Source: Saccharothrix carnea
GTDB taxonomy: Bacteria; Actinomycetota; Actinomycetes; Mycobacteriales; Pseudonocardiaceae
Direction: 5' to 3'
Assembly: GCF_003014735.1 (NCBI RefSeq)
Contig: NZ_PYAX01000004.1
Location: 372,001 to 436,000, forward strand
Length of the DNA stretch: 64,000 bases
Shown here piece by piece: positions 40,339-46,009 of the stretch. A program made the position numbers and the translations under genes. Positions within the stretch are counted from its first letter, which is position 1, and each line of letters starts with the position of its first letter. The notes beneath the pieces were generated by a model. It was not told where the DNA came from. It was given only the letters and a program-made list of their open reading frames with translations, and ran no database searches.

Positions 40339-41745
40339 GTGACTGTGACCGATTCGGACTTGGAGACCGAGCAGACTCGGTTGAGCCTGAGCACGGCGGC
40401 GGCCCGGAACCTGGCGACCACGACCAAGTCCGTTCCCCAGATGCAGGGCATCACCTCGCGGTGGCTGCTCAAGATCCTGCCCTGGGTGGAGGCGAAGGGC
40501 GGCGCCTTCCGGGTCAACCGCAGGCTCAGCTACGAGATCGGTGACGGGCGGCTGACCTTCACCAACATCGGTGCGAACGTCCGGGTCATCCCGGAGGAGC
40601 TGACCGAACTGGCGCTGCTGCGCGGTTTCGAGGACGTCGAGGCGCTCAACGCGCTGGCCGACCGGTTCGAGCAGCGCGAGTTCGAACCGGGTGCGGTCAT
40701 CGTGGAGGAGGGCCGCCCGCAGGACTCGGTCTACCTGATCGCGCACGGCAAGGTGAACCGGATCGGCCAGGGCGAGTACGGCACCCAGACCGTGCTCGGC
40801 ACGCTGGCCGACGGCGAGCACTTCGGCGGCGACGTCCTCGCCGGCCCGCAGGGCGAGTGGGAGTTCACCGTCAAGGCCGTCACGCCGGTGATCCTGCTGG
40901 TGCTGCCGTGGGACGTGTTCGAGCAGCTCAACGGTGAGGCGGGCGGCCTGCGCGCGCACATCCAGCGGATGTTCGCGGCGGGCGCCGGCAAGTCCAACGC
41001 CTACGGCGAGGCCGAGATCGACATCGCCTCCGGCCACGAGGGCGAACCCGACCTGCCCGGCACGTTCGTCGACTACGAGATCGCGCCGCGCGAGCTGGAG
41101 CTGAGCGTCGCGCAGACCGTGCTGCGGGTCCACAGCCGCGTCGCGGACCTCTACAACCAGCCGATGGACCAGGTCGAGCAGCAGTTGCGGCTGACCATCG
41201 AGGCGCTGCGCGAGCGCCAGGAGCACGAGATGGTCAACAACCGCGACTTCGGCCTGCTCAACAGCGCCGACCTCAAGCAGCGCATCCACACCCGCACCGG
41301 CCCGCCGACCCCCGACGACATGGACGACCTGCTGGCCACGGTGTGGAAGGAGCCGACCGCGTTCCTGGCGCACCCGCGGGTCATCGCCGCGTTCGGCCGC
41401 GAGTGCAGCAAGCGGGGCATCTACCCGTCGACCATCGACCTCAACGGCCACCACGTGCCCGCGTGGCGTGGTGTGCCCGTGCTGCCGTGCAACAAGATCC
41501 CGGTCACCAAGACCCGCACCAGCTCGATCATGCTGCTGCGCGCCGGCGAGCACAACCAGGGCGTCATCGGCCTGCACCAGACCGGCCTGCCCGACGAGTA
41601 CCAGCCGGGGCTCAACGTGCGGTTCATGGGCATCAGCGAGAAGGCGATCATCTCCTACCTCGTCAGCGCCTACTACTCGACCGCGATCCTCGTGCCGGAC
41701 GCCGTCGGCGTGCTCGAGCACGTGGAACTCGGCCGCGAAGACTGA
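40339..41745 (+). CDS. Family 2B encapsulin shell protein, copy 1
   Basis: A 468-residue shell protein of the HK97-fold encapsulin family 2. [14 protein letters not shown]...[12 protein letters not shown] (about 16-44) and [13 protein letters not shown] are the family 2 N-terminal hallmark. A cyclic-nucleotide-binding-like domain is inserted at about 95-212 ([25 protein letters not shown]), which defines type 2B. The HK97-type body resumes to the end ([31 protein letters not shown]). The nucleotide pocket lacks the Glu-Arg pair of CRP-type cassettes ([18 protein letters not shown]). Database tools often call such proteins Crp/Fnr regulators; there is no HTH. It is followed by a close paralogue. 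Confidence 0.9.
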
Positions 41746-41775
41746 TAGTCCCCCCGACAAGATTGGGCAGCTGAC

Positions 41776-43185
41776 GTGACCGTGACAGACCCCGGCCTCG
41801 CACCCGAAGAGGCCGAGCAGCAGCGGCACAGCCTGAGCACCGCGGCCGCGCGGAACCTGGCGAGCACCACCAAATCCACCCCCCAGATGCAGGGCATCTC
41901 GCCGAGGTGGCTGCTGCGCAAGCTGCCGTGGGTGACCACCCAGGCAGGCACGTACCGGGTCAACCGCCGCCTCACCTACGCGCTCGGTGACGGGCGGGTG
42001 AGCTTCACCAGCACCGGCGCCGACATCAGGGTCATCCCGCAGGAGCTGCGGGAACTGCCCGTGCTGCGCGACTTCGCGGACGACGACGTGCTGGTCGCGT
42101 TGGCCGGCCGGTTCCGGCAGCGCGAGTTCCAGCCCGGCGACGTGCTGATCTCCTCGGGCGACCGGGCCGAGGAGGTCTTCCTCGTCGCGCACGGCAAGGT
42201 GAACAAGATCGGGCAGGGCAAGTACGGCGACCAGACCGTGCTCGACACGCTGGCGGACGGCGACCACTTCGGCGACGAGGTGCTGTTCGGCGACGAACTG
42301 GCGTGGGACTACACCGTCAAGGCGATCACGCCGGTGATCGTGCTGACGCTGCCGTGGCGGTCGGTGCAGGAGCTCGGCGAGCACGCGGAGGCGCTGCGGG
42401 CGCACATCGACGGGTTCGCGCGCGACGCGGGCAAGCCGCAGAACAAGCACGGCGAGGCGGAGATCGAGATCGCCTCCGGGCACGAGGGCGAGCCGGACCT
42501 GCCGGCGACCTACGTCGACTACGAGTTGTCCCCGCGCGAGTACGAGCTGGAAGTGGCGCAGACCGTGCTGCGCGTGCACAGCCGCGTCTCCGACCTCTAC
42601 AACTACCCGATGAACCAGACCGAGCAGCAGTTGCGGCTGACCATCGAGGCCCTGCGCGAGCGGCAGGAGCACGAGATGATCAACAACCGCCGCATCGGGC
42701 TGCTGCACAACGCCGACCTCAAGCAGCGCATCCACACCCGCACCGGCCCGCCGACCCCCGACGACCTGGACGAGTTGCTGTCCCGGCGGCGCAAGACGGG
42801 TTTCGTGCTGGCCCACCCGCGCACGATCGCCGCGTTCGGCCGGGAGGCGAGCAAGCGGGGCCTGTACCCGGGCACCACCAACGTGGACGGCACGCAGGTC
42901 GTGACCTGGCGCGGCGTGCCGCTGCTGCCCTCGGACAAGATCCCGATCACGCCGCAGGGCACCACGTCGATCCTGGCCATGCGGGTCGGCGAGCAGGACA
43001 ACGGCGTGATCGGGCTGCACCAGCCGGGCATCCCGGACGAGGTGCAGCCGAGCCTGAACGTGCGGTTCATGGGCATCAACGAGAAGGCGATCGTGTCGTA
43101 CCTGGTCAGCGCCTACTACTCGGTGGCCGTGCTGGTGCCGGACGCGCTCGGGGTGCTGGAACACGTGGAGATCGGCCGGTCCTGA
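41776..43185 (+). CDS. Family 2B encapsulin shell protein, copy 2
   Basis: A 469-residue paralogue of the preceding shell, alike along its whole length. It has [15 protein letters not shown], inserted nucleotide-binding-like domain at about 97-216, [11 protein letters not shown] and [23 protein letters not shown]. The cassette [19 protein letters not shown] keeps an acidic residue but lacks the phosphate-binding Arg. Both shells start GTGAC(T/C)GTGAC. The 30-base gap between them implies one transcript, and the pair probably co-assembles into a mixed shell. The next gene is the likely enzyme cargo. Confidence 0.9.
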
Positions 43186-43199
43186 CCTGATCCCGGTCC

Positions 43200-43397
43200 G
43201 TGCTCGACGGGCCTGGACCTGGACTTGGCGGCGCCGTCCCACCCGGCAGCCGGGTCACCACACCCGGCTGCCGCACCGCCTTCGCGCGTACCCGCGCGCT
43301 GCCCTCGCGTGCCCATGCCTGGGCCGCCCGTGCCTGCCGCCCTCACGGCGGCCCCCGAACAGGAGTTGTGGCGATGACACAGGAGTTGTGGCGATGA
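43200..43397 (+). CDS. Short upstream frame, possible displaced N-terminus of the prenyl synthase
   Basis: A 65-codon frame starting at GTG, 15 bases after the shell 2 stop. It is Gly/Pro/Ala/Arg-rich (LDGPGPGLGGAVPPG...) and ends at TGA 43395-43397, overlapping the synthase ATG as ATGA. If one copy of the 20-bp duplication 43359-43398 is removed, codons 1-58 become continuous with the synthase. Third-position GC is lower than in neighbouring genes, so coding is uncertain. It may act now only as a coupling peptide. Confidence 0.35.
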   Translation: MLDGPGPGLGGAVPPGSRVTTPGCRTAFARTRALPSRAHAWAARACRPHGGPRTGVVAMTQELWR

Positions 43398-44883: not shown

Positions 44884-44906
44884 CTGGAGACGACCCGTCC
44901 GACCCT

Positions 44907-44946
44907 GACGGGACATCCGGTCCGACGACGGGACATCCGGTCCGAC
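44907..44946 (+). repeat. Perfect 20-bp tandem repeat before ispH
   Basis: GACGGGACATCCGGTCCGAC twice in succession (44907-44926, 44927-44946), about 60 bases upstream of the ispH start. Each unit contains a short self-complementary core. Confidence 0.9.
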
Positions 44947-45004
44947 CCGACCGGATCCCACGCCCGGACTTGACGAGACACCCGACCTGACGAGGAGTCG
45001 TGCC

Positions 45005-46009
45005 GTGGCCCTTCCCGTTGTCCTGCTGGCGTCACCCCGGTCGTTCTGCGCCGGGGTCGAACGTGCCATCGACATCGTCGCCCGGCTCCTGGACCAGCGC
45101 GGTGGGCCGATCCACGTGCGGAAGCAGATCGTGCACAACACGCACGTCGTGGCCGAGCTGGAGGCGCGTGGAGCGGTGTTCGTGGACGAGCTGGATGCCG
45201 TGCCGGACGGGGCGACCGTGGTGTTCTCGGCGCACGGCGTGTCGCCGGCGGTGCGGGAGGAGGCGGCGCGGCGCGGGTTGGAGGTGATCGACGCGACGTG
45301 CCCGTTGGTGACGAAGGTGCACGCGGAGGCGAAGCGGTATGCCGCGCGGGGTGACACGGTGGTGCTCATCGGGCACGCCGGGCACGAGGAGGTCGAGGGC
45401 ACGGTGGGCGAGGCGCCCGCGCAGACGGTGCTGGTGCAGAGCGTCGCGGACGTGGAGGCGTTGGAGGTGCCGGATCCGGCGCGGGTCTCGTACCTGACCC
45501 AGACGACGCTCGCGGTGGAGGAGACGGCCGATGTGCTGGCCGCGTTGCGGGAGAAGTTCCCGGCGTTGAGGGGACCTTCGTCGGCGGACATCTGCTACGC
45601 CACCACGAACCGGCAGGACGCGGTGCGTGAGGTCGCGCGTGACTCGGACGTGGTGCTGGTGGTGGGTTCGCGGAACTCGTCGAACTCGGTGCGGTTGGTC
45701 GAGACCGCCCGCCGGATGGGGACGCCCGCGCACCTGATCGACGACGTGTCGGACATCCGGGTGGAGTGGCTGGCCGACGCGCGGGTGGTCGGGCTGAGCG
45801 CGGGCGCCTCCGCGCCGCCGCGGTTGGTGGACGAGGTGATCGAGGCGCTGGGCGCCTGGGACGTGCAGGTGCGCGAGACCGCGCGGGAGACGATCCAGTT
45901 CACGCTGCCGGCGGCGGTGCGGCGGCAAGGACAGGCACCCGGTCAGCCCCTGCCAGAGCCGCGAACACCCGATCGGGCGAAAGGCACAACGGAACCCGAC
46001 CGGGCGTGA
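45005..46009 (+). CDS. ispH: 4-hydroxy-3-methylbut-2-enyl diphosphate reductase
   Basis: A 334-residue IspH/LytB that makes IPP and DMAPP in the last step of the MEP pathway. The three 4Fe-4S cysteines are Cys15 (SFCAGVERA), Cys99 (DATCPLVTK) and Cys197 ([10 protein letters not shown]). HxxH-type active-site segments ([25 protein letters not shown]) are present. The GTG is preceded by GAGGAG. A basic C-terminal tail of about 35 residues is extra. Placed after the prenyl synthase, it would supply its substrates. It may be a second, pathway-dedicated copy; that needs the rest of the genome. Confidence 0.93.

Follow-up and report, generated by a model that had tools for sequence, protein, structure and literature searches.

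A locus of Saccharothrix carnea encoding two Family 2B encapsulin shells with a polyprenyl diphosphate synthase and a second IspH

We analysed a window of 64,000 nucleotides from Saccharothrix carnea (assembly GCF_003014735.1, contig NZ_PYAX01000004.1, positions 372,001 to 436,000 of the forward strand) and describe here a locus at 40339-46009 of that window. Open reading frames (ORFs) and profile matches place four genes on its + strand, encoding in order two Family 2B encapsulin shell proteins (Enc1 and Enc2), a trans-polyprenyl diphosphate synthase (PT) and IspH, the 4-hydroxy-3-methylbut-2-enyl diphosphate (HMBPP) reductase. A first-pass annotation, made from the letters alone, had proposed two shells, a prenyl synthase and IspH at this place and on one strand, and all four genes were confirmed.

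40339..41745, + strand: Enc1, upstream Family 2B encapsulin shell, 468 aa (NF041163; best PDB match 9BJE)
41776..43185, + strand: Enc2, downstream Family 2B encapsulin shell, 469 aa (NF041163; best PDB match 9BIX)
43394..44434, + strand: PT, trans-polyprenyl diphosphate synthase, putative cargo, 346 aa (NF041169; AlphaFold)
45005..46009, + strand: second ispH (HMBPP reductase), operon type (TIGR00216; tree position)

The start of PT was set at the ATG at 43394, which is conserved in relatives, in place of the GTG at 43388. Small gaps around the shells had also been described, which holds for the 30 bp between Enc1 and Enc2 but not for the 208 bp between Enc2 and PT or the 570 bp between PT and ispH. 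When the four genes were compared with those of seven relatives, dN/dS values lay between 0.13 and 0.55 (simple counting method, IspH tail excluded). The host genome (8.9 Mb in 40 contigs) gave nine matches to PF00348 and eight to the Family 2B shell model, the window pair being the only two of the latter among the matches listed (at least about 750 bits). The closest of the best 80 PT loci, L154 and L155, are likewise from Saccharothrix, with identities of 92 and 95% for Enc1 and 90 and 91% for IspH.

The two shell proteins

Enc1 and Enc2 matched the Family 2B shell model NF041163 with 763.6 and 768.4 bits (cut-off 400), about twice their scores against the Family 2A model, where Enc1 fell just above the cut-off (382.6 against 380) and Enc2 below it (371.9); Enc1 also matched PF19307 with 458.1 bits. 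The best PDB sequence match of Enc1 was 9BJE, over query residues 12-465, and that of Enc2 was 9BIX, over query residues 3-467. Both are depositions of the two-component shell of Streptomyces lydicus (PMC12407261), assigned through motifs in the alignments as Sl-Enc1 and Sl-Enc2, respectively, and it is on homology to these two structures that an HK97 fold is predicted for Enc1 and Enc2. Diagnostic motif 1, reported as TVWK in Sl-Enc1 and RRRK in Sl-Enc2 (PMC12407261), and the insertion domains of the window shells are located as follows.

41338..41349, + strand: Enc1 diagnostic motif 1, TVWK, the same as the Sl-Enc1 motif (PMC12407261)
42784..42795, + strand: Enc2 diagnostic motif 1, RRRK, the same as the Sl-Enc2 motif (PMC12407261)
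40675..40929, + strand: cyclic nucleotide monophosphate (cNMP)-like insertion domain of Enc1, residues 113-197 (PF00027, 53.7 bits)
42121..42375, + strand: cNMP-like insertion domain of Enc2, residues 116-200 (PF00027, 57.2 bits)

Among 59 shell pairs (window included), the upstream shell carries VWK in 57, and the downstream shell carries RRRK, RRRR, RRRG or KRRK in 44 and VWK in none of those 44, the remaining 15 being unparsed by the pattern. At the level of sequence, motif 1 separates the two shell types across the pairs, and the window shells are assigned as Enc1 and Enc2 in the same upstream/downstream order as in S. lydicus. The two are 68.3% identical overall, near the roughly 60% in print (PMC8346489), with 56.4% over residues 100-200 (the cNMP-domain region) and 73.8% over residues 218-468 (the HK97 part). 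The NF041163, PF19307 and PF00027 matches agree with the first-pass annotation, which had read the pair as two distinct Family 2B shells with nucleotide-binding-like insertions. Its remark that annotation pipelines mislabel such shells as Crp regulators is borne out by PDB chains 9BJE and 9BIX, which are themselves titled 'Crp/Fnr family transcriptional regulator'; a correct equivalog model for Family 2B shells (NF041163) is now in NCBIfam.

In the profile search both PF00027 matches precede the PF19307 match, and full-length alignment to the solved Family 2B shells places the insertion in the E-loop. Trp174 of Enc1, in the presumed phosphate-cassette stretch, does not vary among the 43 aligned shells, at a position that would be expected to match the phosphate-binding Arg of CRP. 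A cyclic nucleotide was rejected as the insertion-domain ligand on this ground. The same candidate is countered by earlier work that showed a Family 2B domain not to bind cyclic nucleotides, as reported in PMC12407261, where gating of the two-fold pore is also put forward as a possible role of these domains.

Synthase, IspH and gene order

PT matched PF00348 with 204.8 bits and NF041169, 'family 2 encapsulin nanocompartment cargo protein polyprenyl transferase', with 511.9 bits (cut-off 450), which upholds the prenyl synthase of the first-pass annotation and places it in the annotated encapsulin cargo class. Its AlphaFold model, built with 40 sequences, has a mean predicted local distance difference test (pLDDT) score of 93.2; residues 1-7 are the only stretch below pLDDT 50, and the first helix begins at residue 13. 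The first Asp-rich motif, DDVMD (43697-43711), has Phe97 five residues ahead of it, and Phe97, D102, D103 and D106 are invariant in all 40 PT sequences. PT in this way fits the type-I C20 pattern, in which an uninterrupted DDxxD is preceded at position -5 by a bulky aromatic residue; type-I C20 (geranylgeranyl diphosphate, GGPP) synthases as a rule have Phe there (PMC4244643, PMC9385802). Judged by these motifs, PT is probably a short-chain all-trans synthase with a C20 product.

The ends of PT were compared between 61 shell-linked PTs (window included) and 22 others, only 12 of the 22 coming from loci with long flanks and several sitting at contig ends, where a shell may lie beyond; PT starts in this comparison were guesses by nearest start codon, and the length lists cover rows with the GYH anchor. 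A C-terminal RDH was rejected as a loading peptide, since it occurs in 23 of the 61 and in 7 of the 22. Phe at -5 is present in 60 of the 61 shell-linked PTs. The host genome holds two more PT-like genes (L234 9293-10330, and L235), which share 60% and 55% identity with PT and show no shell within the 18 kb fetched; next to the copy on contig C2 is a gene with 30% identity to a terpene cyclase.

Window IspH matched PF02401 with 315.2 bits and TIGR00216 with 318.8 bits (cut-off 187.85), and its residues 4-306 align to a solved IspH, 3ZGL, which we take to be the E. coli enzyme. The Cys, His, Glu and TTN motifs, to which we assign their presumed active-site roles, are kept, and together with the profile matches they confirm the proposed identity. 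A search for a second ispH elsewhere in the genome, put forward as a check by the first-pass annotation, found one, giving two in total. In a tree of 70 sequences taken from among the IspH matches (L126 dropped as a duplicate of L079, L149 trimmed to its IspH part), a branch with 100/100 support sets the 21 copies from operons, along with 11 further extra copies, apart from 38 housekeeping-labelled copies, the 'housekeeping' and 'other' labels having been assigned by hand after inspection of C-termini. By its tree position operon IspH is a lineage apart from housekeeping IspH, though not one clade, copies from other places being interspersed. Its dN/dS was 0.15-0.29 (seven relatives), against 0.06-0.17 for housekeeping IspH (five relatives). 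The last approximately 25 residues of window IspH are absent from relatives, and this tail was therefore rejected as a loading peptide. In L149 (6037-8814) one open frame, 925 aa long, covers both IspH and DXS, and the 15 kb fetched show no shell.

Conservation of the gene order was assessed in 60 family regions (61 with the window), hand-picked as mostly shell pairs from matches listed at at least about 750 bits and hence saying little on single-shell systems; gaps in relatives were measured between tblastn matches rather than annotated genes. The order Enc1-Enc2-PT-IspH occurs in all seven sampled genomes of the genus (window included). Two shells and PT are carried by 53 of the 61 loci, and ispH follows PT in 21 of these 53 (L048 is counted here, an overlap filter having hidden a match for an IspH that is present in other searches), one of the 21 having a terpene cyclase between the shells. 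Of the 20 relatives that have ispH, 13 have it less than 110 bp from PT, and the length of this gap varies widely among close relatives (29 bp in L154, 687 bp in L155). Chance neighbourhood of the genes was rejected, since the same order recurs in many genera.

In 10 of the 21 ispH-bearing loci DXS comes after ispH, and 7 of those 10 have IspG too; within the genus DXS follows in 4/7 and IspG in 1/7. These downstream genes were identified by reading sequences and borne out by Pfam genome searches. A single full-length dxs and a single ispG were found in the host genome, on contigs other than that of the window. Window IspH groups with those of L044 and L046, which have no DXS, and this group is nested among L048, L045, L042 and L043, outer members of the set that do have it, so that loss of DXS in the branch of the window is the simplest account, and from this nesting its branch has probably lost dxs/ispG. 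DXS, IspG and IspH of the operon family are the same three enzymes that PMC13001223 names as limiting in the methylerythritol phosphate (MEP) pathway, where Dxs is called rate-limiting and the other two bottlenecks. The operon DXS (L042, L043, L045, L048, L065, L067, L072, L079, L094 and L095) is without approximately 40 residues, at positions 192-232 of the N-terminal DXS model PF13292, a segment kept by the best DXS in each of 25 genomes and also missing from some DXS elsewhere.

A wider survey took the best 80 of at least 588 loci by PT similarity, using nine queries, seven of them ispH-linked. In 60 of these 80 loci a shell is encoded no more than 9 kb ahead of PT. Counts of ispH were restricted to the 63 loci whose flanks exceed 6 kb on the upstream and 2.5 kb on the downstream side. 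Of the 29 two-shell loci, 17 have ispH no more than 1.5 kb behind PT (in 10 of 20 genera); the same holds for 2 of the 22 one-shell loci and for 2 of the 12 with no nearby shell, and the raw Fisher test between two-shell and one-shell loci gave p = 0.00035. On a quick PT tree, built from the window and the 63 long-flank loci less one with a short PT match, only two independent pairs lay on supported branches, and in these ispH mostly did not differ; shell number as a driver of ispH adjacency was accordingly rejected despite the p value. With a sample leaning to ispH-linked PTs, the association is best treated as a lead. IspH also stands beside single shells in Stackebrandtia and Glycomyces, and Pseudonocardia acidicola has PT-IspH with DXS and IspG without a nearby shell. 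Pairs of this last kind, away from a nearby shell, suggest that IspH is a companion of the synthase more than of the shell.

Proposed role and its alternatives

Gene identities, the Enc1/Enc2 assignment, the conserved order, the separate IspH lineage and the intact active-site motifs are established directly, and on this basis we think it reasonably likely that the locus specifies a mixed two-component shell around a short-chain (about C20) synthase, with IspH outside boosting precursors. By analogy with S. lydicus, Enc1 and Enc2 would co-assemble into one mixed T=1 shell of approximately 28 nm, with the cNMP-like domains sitting over its large two-fold pores. PT would most likely be the enclosed enzyme, making a short all-trans diphosphate, probably C20. 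IspH, in the cytosol or loosely associated with the shell, would convert HMBPP to isopentenyl diphosphate (IPP) and dimethylallyl diphosphate (DMAPP), lifting supply at a limiting MEP step, and the shell may meter substrate entry and product release via pores gated by the insertion domains. Co-assembly of Enc1 and Enc2 into a mixed shell is reported for S. lydicus (PMC12407261).

Several observations weigh against this proposal. Encapsulin PTs have been described with a disordered N-terminal domain of 50-100 residues (PMC8346489), and the AlphaFold model of the window PT is without one; nor is a loading tag visible in the end comparison or the model. PTs without a shell in the fetched stretch have ends like those of shell-linked PTs, and 21 of the 22 also have Phe at -5, so that this residue bears on the product and not on the shell. 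The NCBIfam GGPP synthase IdsB model was matched below its cut-off (349.1 of 475 bits). PT-IspH pairs occur in L187 and L225 with no shell within approximately 10 kb on either side, the extent of flank searched. The 570-bp repeat-rich gap before ispH could separate it transcriptionally from PT, and no experiment on a PT-type shell was found in the literature searched.

The lack of a disordered N-terminal domain, the like ends of PTs with and without a seen shell (two of the latter in the host genome) and the PT-IspH pairs of L187 and L225 would all fit a shell that encloses something else or acts as an external scaffold, PT and IspH being co-expressed cytosolic terpenoid enzymes. We regard this as unlikely, though to be taken seriously: PT scores above the cut-off of the cargo model, it follows the second shell in 53 of 61 loci (picked, it is true, for their shells), and most of the best 80 PT loci have a shell upstream, as given above. 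Without a disordered tail loading, if any, must use another way, and either end of PT, short as its N-terminus is, or a folded surface could serve. That IspH is itself a second cargo, the two shell types loading two enzymes via differing luminal loops (motif 2), would accord with the excess of ispH at two-shell loci and with the proposal in PMC12407261 that two shells could load two cargos. It strikes us as distinctly improbable, since the excess is not significant once kinship is counted and seven of the nine queries were ispH-linked, IspH has no conserved tail and is found with single shells and with none nearby, and it requires flavodoxin or ferredoxin (PMC13001223). Least credible, and in our estimate very improbable, is that ispH adjoins the shell operon without any relation to it; the repeat-bearing gap and the at least 10 changes of ispH adjacency on the best PT tree, many branches of which are weak, speak for it, but in 10 genera ispH sits at two-shell loci in an unchanged order and orientation, mostly follows PT closely in the relatives that bear it, and belongs to a lineage distinct from housekeeping IspH.

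The first-pass annotation had gone further and envisaged a self-contained compartment. This is unsupported, because IspH depends on HMBPP from the remaining MEP enzymes, with dxs and ispG on other contigs; the missing long N-terminus of PT, the want of a conserved IspH tag and the PT-IspH pairs without a nearby shell count against it as well. A related and bolder picture, in which a two-shell synthase particle has co-evolved with MEP bottleneck enzymes (IspH, and DXS and IspG in relatives) and IspH docks on or in the shell, turning HMBPP into a C20 diphosphate in one place, seems to us improbable on present evidence. IspH output is put at IPP:DMAPP of about 5:1 (PMC13001223), and were IspH docked, this mixture would feed the synthase without an isomerase.

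Extra copies of dxs, ispG and ispH occur beside terpenoid genes in terpenoid gene clusters; here, by comparison, the MEP genes stand behind an encapsulin pair, and only ispH is left in the window. Two-component Family 2B operons with prenyltransferases have already been published, and the locus is a further example. It shares with the S. lydicus system (PMC12407261; 9BJE, 9BIX) adjacent shells, an identical motif 1, the gene order and cNMP-like insertions, and differs in its partners, a prenyl synthase with IspH where S. lydicus has an operon of the xylulose kinase type, and in motif 2, which is similar but not identical. It shares with PT-type Family 2B operons (PMC8346489, PMC8049743), of which 900 were reported in 2021 (PMC8346489), the succession of shell and polyprenyl synthase; the long disordered N-terminus described for their PTs (PMC8346489), a trait ascribed to the cargo class, does not hold here. 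Nearby terpenoid precursor biosynthesis genes are mentioned in general terms for such operons; the main texts of both papers do not contain ispH, and the main text of PMC8346489 contains neither lytB nor deoxyxylulose. In the open-access literature searched, supplements aside, we found no link of ispH, dxs or ispG to encapsulins and no test of the role of PT-type encapsulins. The conserved partnership of shell and PT with ispH(-dxs-ispG) thus seems under-described, and the conservation of this gene order links the compartment with the supply of precursors.

Non-coding features and flanks

Two repeat features lie beside PT, one at its start and one in the gap before ispH.

43359..43398, + strand: perfect 20-bp tandem duplication covering the PT ribosome-binding site and start (single copy in the six relatives compared)
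44608..44762, no strand: GC-rich tandem repeats with units of 17, 34 and 51 bp in the PT-ispH gap (repeat scan)

The duplication at 43359-43398 creates a 7-codon leader ORF, the stop of which overlaps the PT start. The PT-ispH gap also holds a perfect 20-bp pair at 44907-44946, the repeat region spanning 44608-44955 overall. A scan for consensus promoters found none, and two terminators were found against 2.0 expected, the one on the + strand lying at 40013, upstream of Enc1. The 100 bp before Enc1 (40239-40339) are well conserved across eight Saccharothrix loci and include a CTCACTACSGTC block, which could be a candidate promoter or regulator binding site. Directly upstream, 38961-39908 encodes a polyethylene terephthalate (PET)-hydrolase-like enzyme (PF12740, 416 bits), with a relative upstream in L044 and L046 too.

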